Shown piece by piece: positions 27,555-35,715 of a DNA stretch of 64,000 nucleotides; position 1 is the stretch's first letter, and every line of letters begins with the position of its first letter. The notes beneath the pieces were generated by a model that was not told the origin of the DNA, ran no database searches, and saw only the letters and a program-made list of their open reading frames with translations. Source of the stretch: Bacteroidales bacterium (lineage in GTDB: Bacteria; Bacteroidota; Bacteroidia; Bacteroidales; UBA10428); assembly GCA_016931575.1 (NCBI GenBank), contig JAFGEO010000055.1:1-64000 (forward strand), read 5' to 3'. The position numbers and the translations under genes were made by a program.

Positions 27555-28814
27555 GTGAGGAAGAAAACGACTTCTTTCATTTTTCTTGGACTCTTGGCAT
27601 TATCCCTCGTTTCATGTTACGAGGAATATGAAGTTTATCCGGAAATCAGTGAGGGTGCTTTCAATTTCAAATTGGATAATGCACAGGAACAAGAGATCAA
27701 TGACTCGAGAGGAGTCAACTTTATGGTCACTGATCCTCTGCCCATGCTGGAGCGGAACGGTATTCAATACCCGCTGGACAGGTTCGAGATCAGGGGGGAA
27801 AGCACATTGAATTTCAGAAGGAAAAGCTTTTCCATTAACATGGATACCAGCTTTTATTTATTTATCGATGCGGAAGGATCTGCACGTGACGTGGAGGAAT
27901 TCAAACTTATTTCCCTGGTGTATGACTTTACCTACATCGAAGGGGCCATCGCTCACTCGATCTTTCGCCAACTGGGGATGTGGCCTACTCACAGTGAGTA
28001 TACCGAAGTACGGCTAAATGGCCATACACAGGGATTATACCTTTTAATAGAAGATCCCGTGGAGTATTATCTCTACGAGCAGGGAGCCAGCTTAATTCTT
28101 CGCAGAGGCTATAATCATAGTAAATCAATGTCTGCGATAAACGAGCTGAAGGAAACCAAACCTGCCAGTGTATATCTTGCCCGCTTTGATTCTATCTACT
28201 CCTATATCCGACAGTACGATGGGATGCAATGTTACGATTCCCTGCAGTCGGTTCTGGATATGCCGTCATATTTTACCAAAATGTCAGTAGACCTGCTGTT
28301 GAAAAACGGAGACTATACGGATGAGGTTTTTTTCTATACCGCGGAATTGGGAGGGAAAGAAATTTACCGGGTTTCCCCTTGGGATTATGACGATCTGTTT
28401 CAGATTCCGCATGAAATTGGCAGGGACTGGGCAGTGGGGACTGTTTTCGGGACCAGGACGTACGAATCGCAGCAGGATATTATCGATGATGTGGGCGAAT
28501 CCCTGGTATTTTCTATTGAAGATGACCTTGACTATAAGATCGCAAAGGATAGTGTTCTCTATCAAAAGTATCTTGAAACCCTGGCCAATGTCATGCAGAA
28601 GATTGACGCAGAGGTGATAGAACAAATTATGCTCGAAACCAGGGATACCCTACAGCCGTTTTACCACCATCCGGAGATCATTGAGCAATCTAAATATGAT
28701 GCGAACAAGACCACGCAGGTGCTATTTGATCAGAATCTGATCGATAAAAGACAGTTTTTGCTGGATCGACGTGAATGGATAATACAGGAATTACACATAC
28801 AAAAGAGCCGATGA
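27555..28814 (+). CDS. CotH-kinase-like lipoprotein
   Basis: A 419-residue lipoprotein (lipobox SLVSC near residue 21) opening at GTG 27555, the only start that gives a full signal peptide. CotH signatures: FEIRGESTLNFRRKSFSI (the RGxS...KKS block binding phosphate), RLNGHTQGLYLLIEDP and VSPWDYDDLF (metal-type Asp pair). CotH proteins are atypical secreted kinases; the Bacillus CotH phosphorylates spore coat proteins. In Bacteroidota the substrate is unknown. Start of a three-gene secreted set: the stop overlaps the next ATG by 4 bases. Confidence 0.88.
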   Translation: MRKKTTSFIFLGLLALSLVSCYEEYEVYPEISEGAFNFKLDNAQEQEINDSRGVNFMVTDPLPMLERNGIQYPLDRFEIRGESTLNFRRKSFSINMDTSFYLFIDAEGSARDVEEFKLISLVYDFTYIEGAIAHSIFRQLGMWPTHSEYTEVRLNGHTQGLYLLIEDPVEYYLYEQGASLILRRGYNHSKSMSAINELKETKPASVYLARFDSIYSYIRQYDGMQCYDSLQSVLDMPSYFTKMSVDLLLKNGDYTDEVFFYTAELGGKEIYRVSPWDYDDLFQIPHEIGRDWAVGTVFGTRTYESQQDIIDDVGESLVFSIEDDLDYKIAKDSVLYQKYLETLANVMQKIDAEVIEQIMLETRDTLQPFYHHPEIIEQSKYDANKTTQVLFDQNLIDKRQFLLDRREWIIQELHIQKSR

Positions 28815-30526
28815 TGAAGACTTATTACATACTTTTCGCCAGCCTTTTTCTCCTGGCTTCCGACTGCGGGAATAAACCGGTAGTTGAAGAATGCCTCGAC
28901 GATGCCTGCTTCATGCTTAGTGACCTTGAAACACGGGTGGATTACTATCTGCCTTTTATTCTCTATAATGACAAGGATGAATATCCAACAATCCTGTTAA
29001 ATGGGCAGGTCATTTCCCTCGACTACGGAAAATCCTATGAGTTTACCGAATCTGGTTTTTATGAACTCGAGTTGAAGGGTAATACTTCGGATGATGTATA
29101 TCTCTTCACACTGGGAACGGAAGAACGGGAACATGCTGAATGGGGTATCCCTCAGTGGGTTCCAAAGACCTTTACAGCTGAGTCATCTTTTTCAGGAGAA
29201 GTCACTTCAATCTACCCCAGACGATACCTTCCCGGAATTGACATCCCGTTCATTTTTTATGCCACCCAGGGTGGACAGAGGATGGAGGGTTACCTGGAAG
29301 CTTCGGGGGCAGGCCATTCCTTCAATGTAAAACATGGTGTCGGATCTGTTCTTCTGAGTACGGATCAGGCGGGGAACCCCCAATTCAACATCGGCGGACA
29401 ACAAGTTGATTTGTCCCTGCAGGAGGCTGCCGGATATACGCACGAACTGAGTGGTACCTATGAGGAACCGCTAGTCATCCCGGAAAATTCTGTAGTACAC
29501 ATCTCAGGAAACGTATACCTTTCAGGAAGTTCTGCCTCCCTGCAAATTGGTGCCGGAAGCCTGGTATTGGTCGATGAGGCCATCAATATTTATAACGATT
29601 ATTGCGCCATTCAAATTAATGGGACTGCTTCAAATCCTGTTCTGATTACCTGCTCTGAGTCTGGTAAATACTGGGGTGGATTCATCTCTGGTCAGCAGGG
29701 TGCACCGGCAGATCTTACGGCCTCATACGCTATATTTTGTCGGAGCGGATATCATGACACAGGGGAATATGAGAGTTGGGGACATGCCAGGAGGCAGGGC
29801 CTCTTCTATACCGTCAACAGCAGTCTCAGCCTGGATCATTGCTATATGACCGACCATATCGGGCAGGTTTTTTATCCAATATATGCCGAGGTGGAGCTAA
29901 GTTCTGTTCTTGTTCAGAGGGCAAAAACGAGCGGTCAGCTAAATTATTCCACAGTCACAATTACCGGCAGTACGTTTACGGATTTTCCGGACGATAGCTA
30001 TACCTACCTCGACGATGATAACGATGCCTTATACATCAATCATTGTGATGCAAGAATCGATTCATGCATTTTCATGTTTGCCAAAGATGACGGGATGGAT
30101 TCAGGAGGAAATGACGGAGGAACCGTTGAGGTCTCCAATACAAGGTTTGAAGCCTGTTTCCATGAAGGCGCAGCACTTTCAAGCGTTGATCCGGCTGTCA
30201 AATCCCACACGTTCCGGAATTGTACTTTCTTTAATTGCGGACAGGGGCTGGAGCTGGGATTCAGCAGTCCGCATCATACCGTTACGATAGATAACTGTCG
30301 ATTCCTGGACAACGGTATCGGCATCCGCTATGGTGATAATTATACCTGGTCTTCGATAAACGGAACGCTATATGTCAATAATTCGCAGAGCCTGAATAAT
30401 AGTAAGGATGTCTGGAATATGGTAAGATCCCACTGGTCTCCCAAACTGGACCATATGATTTTCAGCAACGTCCAGGTCTCACAACAAACCGATCAGTATC
30501 CGGGCCTTGAGGTGATTGACAACTAA
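28811..30526 (+). CDS. Secreted right-handed parallel beta-helix protein
   Basis: About 572 residues from ATG 28811 (ATGA overlap with the CotH-like gene); the longer ORF adds 12 out-of-place residues. The signal peptide ends near LLASDCGN, where Asp at -1 is atypical of a lipobox, so lipidation is uncertain. After a beta-sandwich-like N-terminal region (to about 220) come repeated beta-helix rungs with Asn/Asp/Cys ladders (ITGSTFTDFPDD, INHCDARIDSCIF, IDNCRFLDNGIGIRY), like PbH1 repeats. No catalytic residues of polysaccharide lyases are obvious. It lies between two CotH-like genes and may be their substrate or partner, which is inference. Confidence 0.85.
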   Translation: MMKTYYILFASLFLLASDCGNKPVVEECLDDACFMLSDLETRVDYYLPFILYNDKDEYPTILLNGQVISLDYGKSYEFTESGFYELELKGNTSDDVYLFTLGTEEREHAEWGIPQWVPKTFTAESSFSGEVTSIYPRRYLPGIDIPFIFYATQGGQRMEGYLEASGAGHSFNVKHGVGSVLLSTDQAGNPQFNIGGQQVDLSLQEAAGYTHELSGTYEEPLVIPENSVVHISGNVYLSGSSASLQIGAGSLVLVDEAINIYNDYCAIQINGTASNPVLITCSESGKYWGGFISGQQGAPADLTASYAIFCRSGYHDTGEYESWGHARRQGLFYTVNSSLSLDHCYMTDHIGQVFYPIYAEVELSSVLVQRAKTSGQLNYSTVTITGSTFTDFPDDSYTYLDDDNDALYINHCDARIDSCIFMFAKDDGMDSGGNDGGTVEVSNTRFEACFHEGAALSSVDPAVKSHTFRNCTFFNCGQGLELGFSSPHHTVTIDNCRFLDNGIGIRYGDNYTWSSINGTLYVNNSQSLNNSKDVWNMVRSHWSPKLDHMIFSNVQVSQQTDQYPGLEVIDN

Positions 30527-30533
30527 GGACACT

Positions 30534-32066
30534 ATGAACACAAACCTACGTACAGGATTAGTTTTCCTGGTAGTCCCCTTTTTTTTGATTTCCTGTTACA
30601 AGGATGTCTACTATCCTGTGGATCAGAATAGTGAATATGCCTACCTGGCCTTTAATGAAACCCAGCTGGGGATCGATACCGTGAACCATTTGCTGCTGTG
30701 CCCGGTTTCTGCAGGAGATTTGGAAGAGTGGGAAGTAGAGATATATGCTGAACCCCTGAAAATTCTGAAAATCGAAGGGAGGAGCCCTGAGAAGGATGTC
30801 TATCGATTCGGGAATATTGACCTGACCCGGACCTATTCCGTGCTACTGCAATTTCCTGAACAGCCGGAGGAGGAGTATCTCTTGCAGTTTAGTTCTTTAC
30901 CTGTGTTTCAGATCTATTCCCGGACAGCTATCCTGAATGAACTTAAAGTGGATTCCTGGATCAGTATCTCAATGGTTCAGGGGGATGAGCCCGCCCATTA
31001 TGGACATATTGGTATTGAATACCGGGGTGCATCCGGGATATGGAGACCTAAAAAATCATTCGGAATCGAATTTCAGGAGGATGTATACGACAGCGATGAA
31101 CAGGATGTAGGTTTCTTTAATCTGCTCGAAGATGATGATTGGATCCTGGATGCAATGTATATCGATCAGGCCCGCATGCGAAAGGCCCTATCTCTTGACC
31201 TGTGGAACGATATGCAGGCAGACCGCTTGCCCGAACAGGATTTTCTGAGCACCAGTTCCCGAGGGGGATATGTAGAGGTATTCCTGAATATGCAGTATGC
31301 CGGTTTATACTACCTGCATGAAAGGATTGACCAGAAGCGCCTGGGTTTGGTACCCACAGGTGAATCCCTGGAAGGTGTGCTCTATAAATCGGAGGACAGA
31401 CAGGCCTCTACACAATATTTGGGCCTCGCCGAACTGCAGCCCGGAGTATTCTGGGGGGGGTGGGAGCTAAAATATCCCGAAGATCAGGGTATCGAAGCCT
31501 GGTACCCGCTATATGATTACCTGAGTTTTGTAATTGGGTCTTCCGATAAGGATTTTGTTGAAGGGATCTTTGAGTGGGTGGATAAGAAGAGTCTGGTAGA
31601 TTACTTTCTGTTTATGAATATCATCAATGCGATGGATAATCAGGACAAGAATATTTTCCTGGCACGTTTCGATCGGAATTCCAGGTTTTTCTTCATACCG
31701 TGGGACCTTGATGCCAGCTGGGGCAGAACCTTCCGTGCTGAAGTGGTGGAAGATCACATCTTGCAGAGGAATAAATTGTATGAAAGGCTTTTTGAACTTG
31801 ATCCTGAACAGTTTAAGACCAGCCTGCACAGCCGATGGAACGATCTGAAGAAAACTGTTTTTAATCCGGACTCTGTTCAGTCCAGGATCAGCGTTTACCA
31901 CAACAGCCTGGTAAGTTCAGGAGCCCTTATACGCGACAACAATGCCTGGCCCGATGCCAGTGTTACGATTGATCAGGAAGTCAGGTTTATGCAGGATTGG
32001 TACATATCAAGGTACGAGTACCTCGATGCCTGCCTTGACTCGCTTTATTTAAGTGGGAAAAAGTGA
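30534..32066 (+). CDS. CotH-kinase-family lipoprotein
   Basis: 510 residues from ATG 30534, chosen over the TTG at 30516 because it follows the previous stop by 7 bases and opens a lipoprotein signal (FFLISC). The CotH core is clear: GIEYRGASGIWRPKKSFGIEF, YVEVFLNMQYAGLYYLHERID (nucleotide-site Glu), DNQDKNIFLARFD and FFIPWDLDASWG. An N-terminal sandwich region of about 130 residues precedes the kinase fold. It overlaps the convergent lipoprotein gene by 22 bases. Third gene of the CotH / beta-helix / CotH set. Confidence 0.9.
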   Translation: MNTNLRTGLVFLVVPFFLISCYKDVYYPVDQNSEYAYLAFNETQLGIDTVNHLLLCPVSAGDLEEWEVEIYAEPLKILKIEGRSPEKDVYRFGNIDLTRTYSVLLQFPEQPEEEYLLQFSSLPVFQIYSRTAILNELKVDSWISISMVQGDEPAHYGHIGIEYRGASGIWRPKKSFGIEFQEDVYDSDEQDVGFFNLLEDDDWILDAMYIDQARMRKALSLDLWNDMQADRLPEQDFLSTSSRGGYVEVFLNMQYAGLYYLHERIDQKRLGLVPTGESLEGVLYKSEDRQASTQYLGLAELQPGVFWGGWELKYPEDQGIEAWYPLYDYLSFVIGSSDKDFVEGIFEWVDKKSLVDYFLFMNIINAMDNQDKNIFLARFDRNSRFFFIPWDLDASWGRTFRAEVVEDHILQRNKLYERLFELDPEQFKTSLHSRWNDLKKTVFNPDSVQSRISVYHNSLVSSGALIRDNNAWPDASVTIDQEVRFMQDWYISRYEYLDACLDSLYLSGKK

Positions 32067-33004
32067 GGCTTAAGGATGTCTGCCGGAAGGTACACACTGT
32101 CATCAGCATATGCCTCATCAGCATCTTTGAACATGGGTTTGTTAAATGCGATAAGCTCTGGCATATAATAGATCATGCTGAAATTGCCTTTGCCTTCTTC
32201 ATAAAACACCAGCATTTCATCTCCCCAGTGATTCTTCTCTGAAGTCAGTCTTCCTTCCTCATCGTAGTGGTATTGTGTGGAATTGTGAAGGTGCCAGTCA
32301 TCATTCTGCCTGCTAAACAAATCTATTTTTGTGGTTTGATCTCCAGTCCAGGAAAATATACTTCGTGAATTGAGCTCAAGTTTGCCGTACTTTCTGTTGT
32401 AATCAAGGTATTCACTTAGCCTCCCATCTTTCCAGAAGAAAGTATCCCGATCCGTCTGGAATCTTTGACCGTCGAGTATTTCAAAATAATTATGCTCCTG
32501 GATTTCATCATTCCTATAAGTAAAGTAGGCCTGGATCTTCTCATTCCAGGTTCCGTTGGTGTAGTGATAGATGGTGTAATGTGTCAGCTTATCATCTTCA
32601 TACTCGTAGTTCCACCTTGAATTCAGGAACCATTCACCTTTTGATCCTACATAGTAAATGTCTTCTACCAGACGGTCGTCCTCAAAGTTATAAATGTTCC
32701 GGCGCTTAAATTTACGTTCTCCCCGATTGAGGTAGTAAAATTCATGGACATACCCTTCATCCGTATTGCTGAACTCGGAAATATAATCCTGTTTCCATGC
32801 AGTATCAGCCATAAAATAGTGATTTATCTGCGTCATTTCGTTTGTCCCATAAATGAATTCCAACTTCCTGTAGGGAACATCGTCATCCTGGAAAATGATC
32901 TCCCGTACCCTTGAACTGTTATCTTCAGGATCCCGACTCTCTTTTTCGCAGCCCTGAATAAGAAACAAGGACAGGAAGATAAAACTTAGAACTACCTTTT
33001 TCAC
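32045..33004 (-). CDS. Lipoprotein with repeated aromatic YD-like units
   Basis: A 319-residue lipoprotein (lipobox LIQGC near residue 19). The mature chain is a run of roughly 25-residue aromatic units such as RNIYNFEDDRLVEDIYY, RWNYEYEDDKLTHYTIYH and TQYHYDEEGRLTSEKN. They look like the YD/RHS-type or MORN-like beta-hairpin repeats common in small Bacteroidota lipoproteins. No catalytic motif. It converges with the CotH gene, the last 22 bases of each overlapping. Confidence 0.82.
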   Translation of the reverse strand: MKKVVLSFIFLSLFLIQGCEKESRDPEDNSSRVREIIFQDDDVPYRKLEFIYGTNEMTQINHYFMADTAWKQDYISEFSNTDEGYVHEFYYLNRGERKFKRRNIYNFEDDRLVEDIYYVGSKGEWFLNSRWNYEYEDDKLTHYTIYHYTNGTWNEKIQAYFTYRNDEIQEHNYFEILDGQRFQTDRDTFFWKDGRLSEYLDYNRKYGKLELNSRSIFSWTGDQTTKIDLFSRQNDDWHLHNSTQYHYDEEGRLTSEKNHWGDEMLVFYEEGKGNFSMIYYMPELIAFNKPMFKDADEAYADDSVYLPADILKPHFFPLK

Positions 33005-33287: not shown

Positions 33288-34247
33288 CTAAGGATGCGTT
33301 TCCTGTGTACCCGTGGATGTCCTGCAATAGGTATATCGATCCTTAATCAGCGCATTGATCAGGATCGTATCCAGGTCAATATTAAGATGGAAGGGGTCAC
33401 TGAAATTCTTTACCTCTGAGGTCAGGGGCGAAGGGTAGTCAAAATCAACTACTTTGCCGATTTTGATGAGGTCATTTTTAAAGGTAGACTCAGCATCCCT
33501 GAGATGGTATTTTGCAATCTGATCCTGCAGATCGGTGTGTGTTGGAGGTATAAAGAAAGTGAGGCTAATTTCGTTCTTGCTGCAATAATTTGCAATTTCC
33601 TGAAGTTTTTCACGGAATGTTTCCGGATAGCCATACTTTCTGTAGAAGATCGATGCGGGTCCTTCGATTTGCTGTTTCCAGAATGCAGCAGTGTCCATAT
33701 CAGGGGTGTTAAATGATGAACCGCTGCTGGTGAGCATATCATAAAAACAGAAGGCCATGGCTTTAATATTGGCACCATTCAATATATAATCCACTTGGCT
33801 TGATGAATTGAAGGTCGCTTCAATCAGGTTTTTATTGTTGAATTTATTGTACAGGTTGAAATTACAGCCGATAATTACGTTTTTCAGTTTTACGTCTTTT
33901 TCATTTGCAAGCTCTTTTATCTTATCGAATGTAATGATGATTTCTTCAAGTGTTGCACTGGGATACCCGAAGTTGAAATAATCCTCACCGGTCAACTCCT
34001 TTATCCGGTCTGAGTTGATAATATCAACCCGTGAATCTCCCAGCATCACATTTGCCTTTGGATTTTTGCTATACTGGACAACTTTCCAGAGACGCCCGTT
34101 TAATTCCCTTGAAATTTCCAGTTTGGTTTCAAGGGGGATCAGAATGTTGTTATCCCAGTAATTATAAGGGTCAGCAACGATGACCAGCAGGATGTATAAA
34201 GGAAAGGGAATCAGGAAATACAGAAATTTTTTTAAAAATTGTTTCAT
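33288..34247 (-). CDS. AlgJ/AlgX-like SGNH-type protein, partner of the MBOAT acyltransferase
   Basis: A 319-residue protein with one N-terminal membrane anchor and an SGNH-like extracytoplasmic domain. Block I appears as VMLGDSRVD (Ser about 72) and the Asp-His pair as FSDPFHLN near residue 290, the arrangement of AlgJ/AlgX/DltD-type acetyl transferases. It lies 4 bases after the MBOAT gene on the same strand, so the two likely act together: the MBOAT protein passes an acetyl group across the membrane and this protein transfers it to a polymer. The acceptor is unknown. Confidence 0.85.
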   Translation of the reverse strand: MKQFLKKFLYFLIPFPLYILLVIVADPYNYWDNNILIPLETKLEISRELNGRLWKVVQYSKNPKANVMLGDSRVDIINSDRIKELTGEDYFNFGYPSATLEEIIITFDKIKELANEKDVKLKNVIIGCNFNLYNKFNNKNLIEATFNSSSQVDYILNGANIKAMAFCFYDMLTSSGSSFNTPDMDTAAFWKQQIEGPASIFYRKYGYPETFREKLQEIANYCSKNEISLTFFIPPTHTDLQDQIAKYHLRDAESTFKNDLIKIGKVVDFDYPSPLTSEVKNFSDPFHLNIDLDTILINALIKDRYTYCRTSTGTQETHP

Positions 34248-34251
34248 AATC

Positions 34252-35715
34252 CTAGAATTGGAAGTAGATAAAATCCTGTTGTGTACCGGTAAAATAGAAA
34301 ATCAAAAAGATGATGAAGTAGTAGTAAGCCCACCTTACCAACCTTGGGAGCCTGGTATTTTCGAACTCGAGCGCATGTTGCTTGTCCCGTTGCAGCCATT
34401 CTGCAACTACCAGCAGGATAACAAGTGCGACATGTGAGGTGGTCACCCAGAGGCTGTTGGATAGCGAGCGTAATTCAGCCACATCAATAACATAGATCGA
34501 GGTGAATATTTTTTTGGTAATGATAAATGCTTCTGCAACGGTTTGAGAGCGGAAAAATACCCAGGCAATGACAGTCAGGAAAAAGGTTAAAGCTATTTGA
34601 AGGAATTCCCTGATGGACGGGAGGTATTTGCCTTTTGCTGCGATATCCAGGTTCCTGCGGTTTTGCTTCATCAATAGCAGTGGCAGGAAGTAGATGGCAT
34701 TAAGCGCACCCCAGATCACAAAGGTCCAGTTTGCCCCATGCCAGAATCCGCTGACGAGGAAAATGATGAATGTATTGCGAATCATTTTTGCTTTTGAAAC
34801 CCGGCTGCCGCCCAGGGGGATGTATACATAATCCCTGAACCAGGTAGAAAGGGAAATATGCCAGCGCCTCCAGAATTCCGCAATGTCGCGGGAGAAATAG
34901 GGGAAGGCAAAGTTTCGCATCAGGGTGAACCCGAATAATCTTGCTGTACCGATTGCGATATCGGAATAGCCGGAGAAGTCGCAATAGATCTGGAAGGCAA
35001 AGAATACCGCGCCAATAAACAGGGTAAACCCATTATAGTCCTGGTAGTTATTGAAAGCCTCCGTTACATAAGTTGCAACATTATCAGCAATAACCACCTT
35101 TTTGAACAGCCCCCAAAGGATTTGCCTCATGCCGTCTGTCGCTTTTACCGGGTCGAATTTTCGATTCTGATAAAACTGGGGAAGCAGGTTTGAAGCGCGT
35201 TCAATAGGACCTGCAACAAGTTGCGGGAAGAAGCTTACGAAAGAGAAAAAAGCTACTACATCTTTGGTAGGTTCCAGTTTTCTTCGATATACATCGATTG
35301 AATAGCTCAGGGTCTGGAAGGTATAAAAGCTGATCCCGACAGGAAGGGTTATATGCAGTACCGTTGTATTAATGGGATTTCCCAGCAGGGTAAAGGCATC
35401 TGCAAAGCTTTGGACAAAGAAATTAAAATACTTGAAAACCCCCAGAAATCCCAGATTCAACAACAAACTGGTCAGCAGAAGAAGTTTGCGCTTGTCGGTC
35501 CTCTCTTCTTTGGAAAGTTGGATTCCGACCCAATAGTCCACGGTTGAGCTGATTACGATCAGGGATAAAAAGATGGGATTCCACCAGCCGTAAAAAACAT
35601 AACTTGCTACCAGTAATAAGAAGTTCTGATATTTTAGCTTACGGTTAATTACAAACCAGTATAGTATGAAAACTATGGGTAGAAAAATCGCGAAATCAAT
35701 CGAGTTGAATAACAT
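34252..35715 (-). CDS. MBOAT-family O-acyltransferase (AlgI/DltB-like)
   Basis: A 487-residue polytopic membrane acyltransferase with about 11-12 helices. Family marks: the opening MLFNSIDFAIFLPIVFILYW, LPVGISFYTFQTLSYSIDVYR, the FPYFSRDIAEFWRRWHISLS block and the catalytic His in VSGFWHGANWTF. Such proteins supply acetyl groups for O-acetylation of alginate, peptidoglycan or other surface polymers. Only the SGNH gene accompanies it; no glycosyltransferases are adjacent, so the target cannot be named. Confidence 0.95.
   Translation of the reverse strand: MLFNSIDFAIFLPIVFILYWFVINRKLKYQNFLLLVASYVFYGWWNPIFLSLIVISSTVDYWVGIQLSKEERTDKRKLLLLTSLLLNLGFLGVFKYFNFFVQSFADAFTLLGNPINTTVLHITLPVGISFYTFQTLSYSIDVYRRKLEPTKDVVAFFSFVSFFPQLVAGPIERASNLLPQFYQNRKFDPVKATDGMRQILWGLFKKVVIADNVATYVTEAFNNYQDYNGFTLFIGAVFFAFQIYCDFSGYSDIAIGTARLFGFTLMRNFAFPYFSRDIAEFWRRWHISLSTWFRDYVYIPLGGSRVSKAKMIRNTFIIFLVSGFWHGANWTFVIWGALNAIYFLPLLLMKQNRRNLDIAAKGKYLPSIREFLQIALTFFLTVIAWVFFRSQTVAEAFIITKKIFTSIYVIDVAELRSLSNSLWVTTSHVALVILLVVAEWLQRDKQHALEFENTRLPRLVRWAYYYFIIFLIFYFTGTQQDFIYFQF

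Follow-up and report, generated by a model that had tools for sequence, protein, structure and literature searches.

CotH kinases have been studied mainly in Bacillus spores, although many non-sporulating bacteria carry them as well. The locus described here raises the question of what two CotH family proteins do on either side of a beta-helix lipoprotein in a Bacteroidales bacterium. The genes lie in the window (the whole stretch of 64,000 nucleotides that was analysed), which is part of contig 85 in a draft genome of 4.8 Mb, and the nearest named relatives of the genes are found in Bacteroidales metagenome-assembled genomes.

Organization of the locus

The first gene, encoding CotH-A (gene 1, 27555..28814, + strand), begins with GTG and specifies a secreted lipoprotein of 419 residues with the lipobox LSLVSC, which belongs to the NGDxxDE subtype of the CotH kinase family. 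The second gene (gene 2, 28811..30526, + strand) begins with ATG and encodes a beta-helix lipoprotein of 571 residues that carries an invariant acidic ladder. The stop codon of gene 1 and the start codon of gene 2 overlap in the sequence ATGA (28811..28814, + strand), and the start of gene 2 is placed at 28811 because of this overlap; position 28775 is the start of the longest gene 2 reading frame only. The lipobox of gene 2, LASDC, is non-canonical, and most orthologues have SC or GC lipoboxes. After a gap of 7 bases (30527-30533) follows the gene for CotH-B (gene 3, 30534..32066, + strand), which begins with ATG and encodes a secreted CotH-family lipoprotein of 510 residues with the lipobox FLISC. 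The trio of the preliminary description, with its ATGA overlap and 7-base gap, is thus confirmed, in that all three reading frames are real, co-directional and correctly placed. The CotH pair had also been called divergent, which is apt for the sequences (19% identity between genes 1 and 3) but not for transcription, as all the genes lie on one strand.

Downstream, a convergent gene (32045-33004, - strand) encodes a lipoprotein of 319 residues that is weakly RHS-repeat-like, and it shares 22 bases at its 3' end with gene 3. Near the CotH operon, genes for an MBOAT acyltransferase and a DUF1574 protein are present at 33288-35715 (- strand); this is the kind of pair seen in polysaccharide O-acetylation.

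The beta-helix protein and its candidacy as a substrate

The AlphaFold (AF2) model of gene 2 is a right-handed beta-helix with a mean pLDDT of 92.5 and a pTM of 0.90. No Pfam family reaches its cut-off for this protein (NosD, 15.1 versus 23.6 bits; DUF5123, 16.8 versus 35.1 bits), and Beta_helix is not listed among its Pfam matches. An alignment of 27 sequences with the corresponding residue table, covering homologues from Bacteroidota, Planctomycetota, Verrucomicrobiota and other groups, reveals that D401, D403, D405, D426, D427, D430, E452, S457, Q478, E481, R506, D509 and Y511 (gene 2 numbering) are near-invariant. These residues recur about every 25 residues, which corresponds to one rung, and are located at strands 407-410, 429-432, 452-456, 478-482 and 503-507 of the model; from this spacing, they should stack on one face of the helix as an acidic ladder. 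The ladder is retained in both CotH-linked and CotH-free homologues.

The best match of the gene 2 model in the PDB is a PL6 alginate lyase (E 5.5e-4, probability 0.99), a weak match with a TM-score of about 0.2, followed by GH28 polygalacturonases with similarly low TM-scores (about 0.2), values too low for assignment to an enzyme family. Additionally, CotH-free homologues in Phycisphaerae and Verrucomicrobia adjoin DUF5060/collagen-binding, GHL10 and Laminin_G genes, whose products are carbohydrate-active or lectin-like. The conserved surface of the beta-helix looks like a catalytic groove or one that binds a metal or a sugar.

In the preliminary description, the beta-helix protein was the obvious candidate substrate of the CotH kinases. 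In Bacillus spores, CotH phosphorylates serines within the Ser/Lys/Arg repeats of CotB and CotG, and cotB, cotG and cotH are likewise neighbours (PMC7821199). A corresponding role of the beta-helix as the substrate of one or both kinases would agree with the tight, conserved linkage of the genes, with the fusions described below, which place CotH and the beta-helix in contact in cis, and with the 57 Ser and 36 Thr of the protein. However, gene 2 contains no SKR-rich region, with at most 9 S/K/R residues in any window of 30 residues, and no Ser or Thr is conserved specifically with CotH linkage. S380, S431, S485 and S486 are conserved in the Bacteroidales set and mostly lost in the CotH-fused homologues, and S457, the only universal Ser, is a ladder residue that persists even in homologues with no neighbouring CotH. 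Moreover, the conserved surface has the appearance of a catalytic or ligand-binding site. Because phosphosites need not be conserved, these findings do no more than weaken the substrate reading; a substrate role is far from obvious, and we regard it as doubtful. Because of the ladder, the weak PL6 and GH28 fold matches and the carbohydrate-active neighbours, a sugar-directed role is likelier than that of a passive substrate, and the beta-helix most likely binds a sugar or modifies a polysaccharide as a partner of the CotH kinases.

CotH-A and CotH-B as putative kinases

The CotH identity of genes 1 and 3, claimed in the preliminary description, is supported by matches to the Pfam CotH family (PF08757) with E-values of 2.3e-25 (90.2 bits) for gene 1 and 3e-49 (168.7 bits against a cut-off of 23.8, spanning profile positions 1-322) for gene 3. 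The best PDB match of the gene 1 AlphaFold model (AF2; pLDDT 78.6, with the catalytic loop itself below 50) is B. cereus CotH, 5jd9 (Foldseek E 1.7e-11, probability 1.0, TM 0.61/0.70), and gene 3 matches the same protein in a phmmer search (1.8e-5).

The D228Q and D251A variants of B. subtilis CotH are catalytically inactive (PMC7821199). Their spacing of 23 residues indicates that D228 and D251 correspond to the Asp of DGFVHN and the Asp of PWD in the solved B. cereus CotH. Gene 3 has the loop D368-N369-x-x-K372-N373 (D368-N-Q-D-K-N373) and PWD391, with the two Asp spaced by 23 residues as in B. subtilis, such that the catalytic Asp pair, the loop Asn and the Lys motif (KKS) are all present. 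The D-N-x-x-K-N loop is common to nine other gene-3-type proteins, among which that of locus L086 has Gln where the others keep Glu. In gene 1, D253 and D277 correspond to D228 and D251 of the B. subtilis protein and are invariant in all 14 full-length orthologues, and an RG...RKS motif is retained. The catalytic-loop Asn is absent from gene 1, where Glu257 occupies its position within an NGDxxDE motif that is invariant in the same orthologues (14/14). The motif recurs at L179 and L180, where two other genomes in the class encode CotH proteins with no beta-helix neighbour, and it therefore marks a CotH subtype.

The ATP-site residues expected of both proteins are thus complete in gene 3, and in gene 1 they comprise both Asp but have Glu for the loop Asn, which leaves the kinase proposal unrefuted. 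On these residues, kinase activity is likely for CotH-B and uncertain for CotH-A. The Glu at the Asn position suggests that CotH-A is perhaps an atypical or weak kinase; CotH-B appears the likelier active kinase of the two, and for CotH-A an atypical kinase and a regulatory partner are both conceivable.

Alternatively, at least one of the CotH proteins could be inactive as a kinase and act as a structural or binding module within a surface adhesin or a matrix assembly. The missing loop Asn of all 14 CotH-A orthologues would fit such a role, as would the adhesin-like appearance of multidomain CotH proteins that carry LTD and type IX secretion tails, and no ATP pool is known at the outer membrane. 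However, both Asp and the Lys motif are present in all CotH-A proteins and the canonical loop is kept in nearly all CotH-B proteins, a degree of catalytic-residue conservation that is unexpected for a pure scaffold, and we consider this explanation unlikely.

Conservation of the gene grouping

A beta-helix profile search of GTDB genomes yielded 36 loci. The searches at class and phylum level returned mostly short, generic beta-helix matches, and strong full-length matches alone were used. Within the family, the search gave few matches, which indicates that the CotH/beta-helix system is patchy, and most Bacteroidota lack the beta-helix. The Bacteroidota set consists of 17 loci with DNA upstream of an intact beta-helix gene (L072-L087 and the window), some of which show only the 3' end of the CotH gene at this position.

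The co-occurrence anticipated in the preliminary description is borne out for CotH-A and the beta-helix: a gene-1-type CotH precedes the beta-helix on the same strand in 17/17 readable loci, with a 4-base stop/start overlap in about 10 of them; at L081, the two are separated by an inserted gene-3-type CotH. The remainder of the grouping varies. L072-L076 contain the CotH-A/beta-helix pair only, and at L077 the pair is followed by a further reading frame. A DUF2490-type outer-membrane barrel follows the beta-helix in the 11 loci from L078 to L088, most of which have a second CotH; no such barrel is present at the window locus. A gene-3-type CotH follows or lies nearby in the window, L078, L079, L081-L084, L086 and L088. 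At L080 and L085, the opposite strand encodes a different CotH that carries a type IX secretion tail. Since the genome of the window has 14 CotH genes in 4.8 Mb, yet the pairing is seen in every readable locus, the arrangement is not due to chance, with the reservation that the 17 loci share ancestry and are not 17 independent events. The divergences of CotH-A and the beta-helix correlate with r = 0.94 (14 loci), which is consistent with shared inheritance.

The association extends beyond this set. At L188, in another family, the beta-helix gene is followed by a CotH gene with a 4-base overlap, and at L106 a CotH gene precedes a beta-helix gene. L185 and L186 each encode a single polypeptide of about 1,500 residues that combines CotH with the same beta-helix, LTD and a type IX tail, and at L103 (Acidimicrobiia) and L105 CotH shares one reading frame with a beta-helix. 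The partnership is not obligate, as indicated by the L179 and L180 CotH proteins and by beta-helix genes of Planctomycetota and Verrucomicrobiota that have no detected neighbouring CotH.

That the genes share no function and are neighbours merely because a single lineage inherited them together would suit the origin of many loci from related uncultured Bacteroidales and the rarity of the beta-helix, but it is highly improbable and largely refuted by the separate fusions in other lineages and the distinct L188 arrangement, and it is at odds with the conserved translational coupling and the about nine different contexts formed by the flanking genes of the 17 loci.

Several related loci were observed besides these. 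A paralogous locus in the same genome (contig 112, L063:7625-10611) has a beta-helix gene cut to 256 residues, followed by a DUF2490 barrel and a CotH-B gene; the internal deletion spares the signal peptide and the rungs of the acidic ladder, and there is no CotH-A at the locus. A degenerate beta-helix gene at L065:7480-8166, the same place as L089:1861-2547, contains an internal stop and has no CotH in its vicinity, which indicates that the system can be lost. At L064:5895-8771 (- strand), a protein of 958 residues with a C-terminal beta-helix and an N-terminus that is CotH-like by eye lies downstream of a CotH-A/beta-helix pair; its CotH domain was not confirmed by Pfam or by hhalign (6.6% probability), and it was not counted as a fusion. 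The CotH-A-like proteins of L181-L184 were dropped as orthologues, having the canonical Asn loop and other neighbours. These loci and L187, from another Bacteroidota group, show a conserved trio of a secreted protein of about 335 residues, a CotH lipoprotein of about 375 residues and a secreted protein of about 280 residues.

A model for the operon

The three genes are genuine and conserved, and they probably function as a unit. In light of the CotH identity, the catalytic residues, the coupled and conserved grouping and the CotH/beta-helix fusions, joint action outside the cytoplasm is the reading that we prefer: the locus would represent a conserved cell-envelope operon of Bacteroidota in which a carbohydrate-directed beta-helix works with CotH kinases on a surface assembly (probability approximately 0.5). 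The operon would comprise CotH-A, the beta-helix, often a DUF2490 barrel, and CotH-B, the products of which would act together outside the inner membrane. The beta-helix would place or serve the CotH kinases, and these would phosphorylate some part of that surface assembly, either a protein or possibly a glycan. From the genes, we infer an outer-membrane or surface location of the products, a sugar target and a phosphorylated component. To our knowledge, the availability of ATP outside the inner membrane of a Gram-negative bacterium is unexplained, which counts against this model.

A more specific and more tentative proposal is that the two CotH proteins (one of the NGDxxDE subtype), the acidic-ladder beta-helix and the DUF2490 barrel constitute an undescribed Gram-negative module for extracytoplasmic phosphorylation that modifies either a matrix protein or a polysaccharide at the surface, perhaps through glycan phosphorylation. 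Among open-licence papers on CotH with a beta-helix, with DUF2490 or in Bacteroidetes, no report of the operon was found. Being small and conserved, with a defined partner and with fusions elsewhere, the operon offers a concrete, testable unit in which to study how Bacteroidota may phosphorylate targets outside the cytoplasm. It also draws attention to a beta-helix family whose acidic ladder is invariant and for which no Pfam model gives good coverage.

Comparison with known systems

A comparison with the Bacillus cotBGH system reveals the same kinase family and fold, a conserved Asp pair and a kinase gene that adjoins its partners. The major differences are that a locus here usually has two CotH proteins, which are lipoproteins in a Gram-negative envelope, that one of them carries Glu for Asn in the loop, and that the partner is a beta-helix rather than an SKR-repeat protein.

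Gram-positive pel clusters, for the Pel polysaccharide, are accompanied by CotH together with a VTC polyphosphate polymerase and DUF4956 (PMC7112168), and in Streptococcus intermedius, Pel levels and aggregation are altered when SIR_1594, the gene with the CotH domain, or SIR_1592 is mutated (PMC12345266); these findings support matrix-related roles of CotH outside spores. The present system resembles them in its non-sporulating and probable extracellular-matrix setting, and the beta-helix homologues of L102 and L186 adjoin VTC and DUF4956 genes. In contrast to the pel clusters, no VTC or DUF4956 is seen at the window locus, the only VTC gene of the genome being on a contig with no CotH match, and the partners are the beta-helix and, at related loci, the DUF2490 barrel.

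With PL6 alginate lyases and GH28 polygalacturonases, the gene 2 protein shares the right-handed beta-helix and conserved polar residues on successive rungs; it differs in that the fold match is weak and there is no family-level sequence match. The Fam20 kinases of the secretory pathway are, like the putative CotH kinases, extracytoplasmic atypical kinases, and they are distantly related to CotH (PMC7821199), although they are eukaryotic, unlike the CotH proteins described here.
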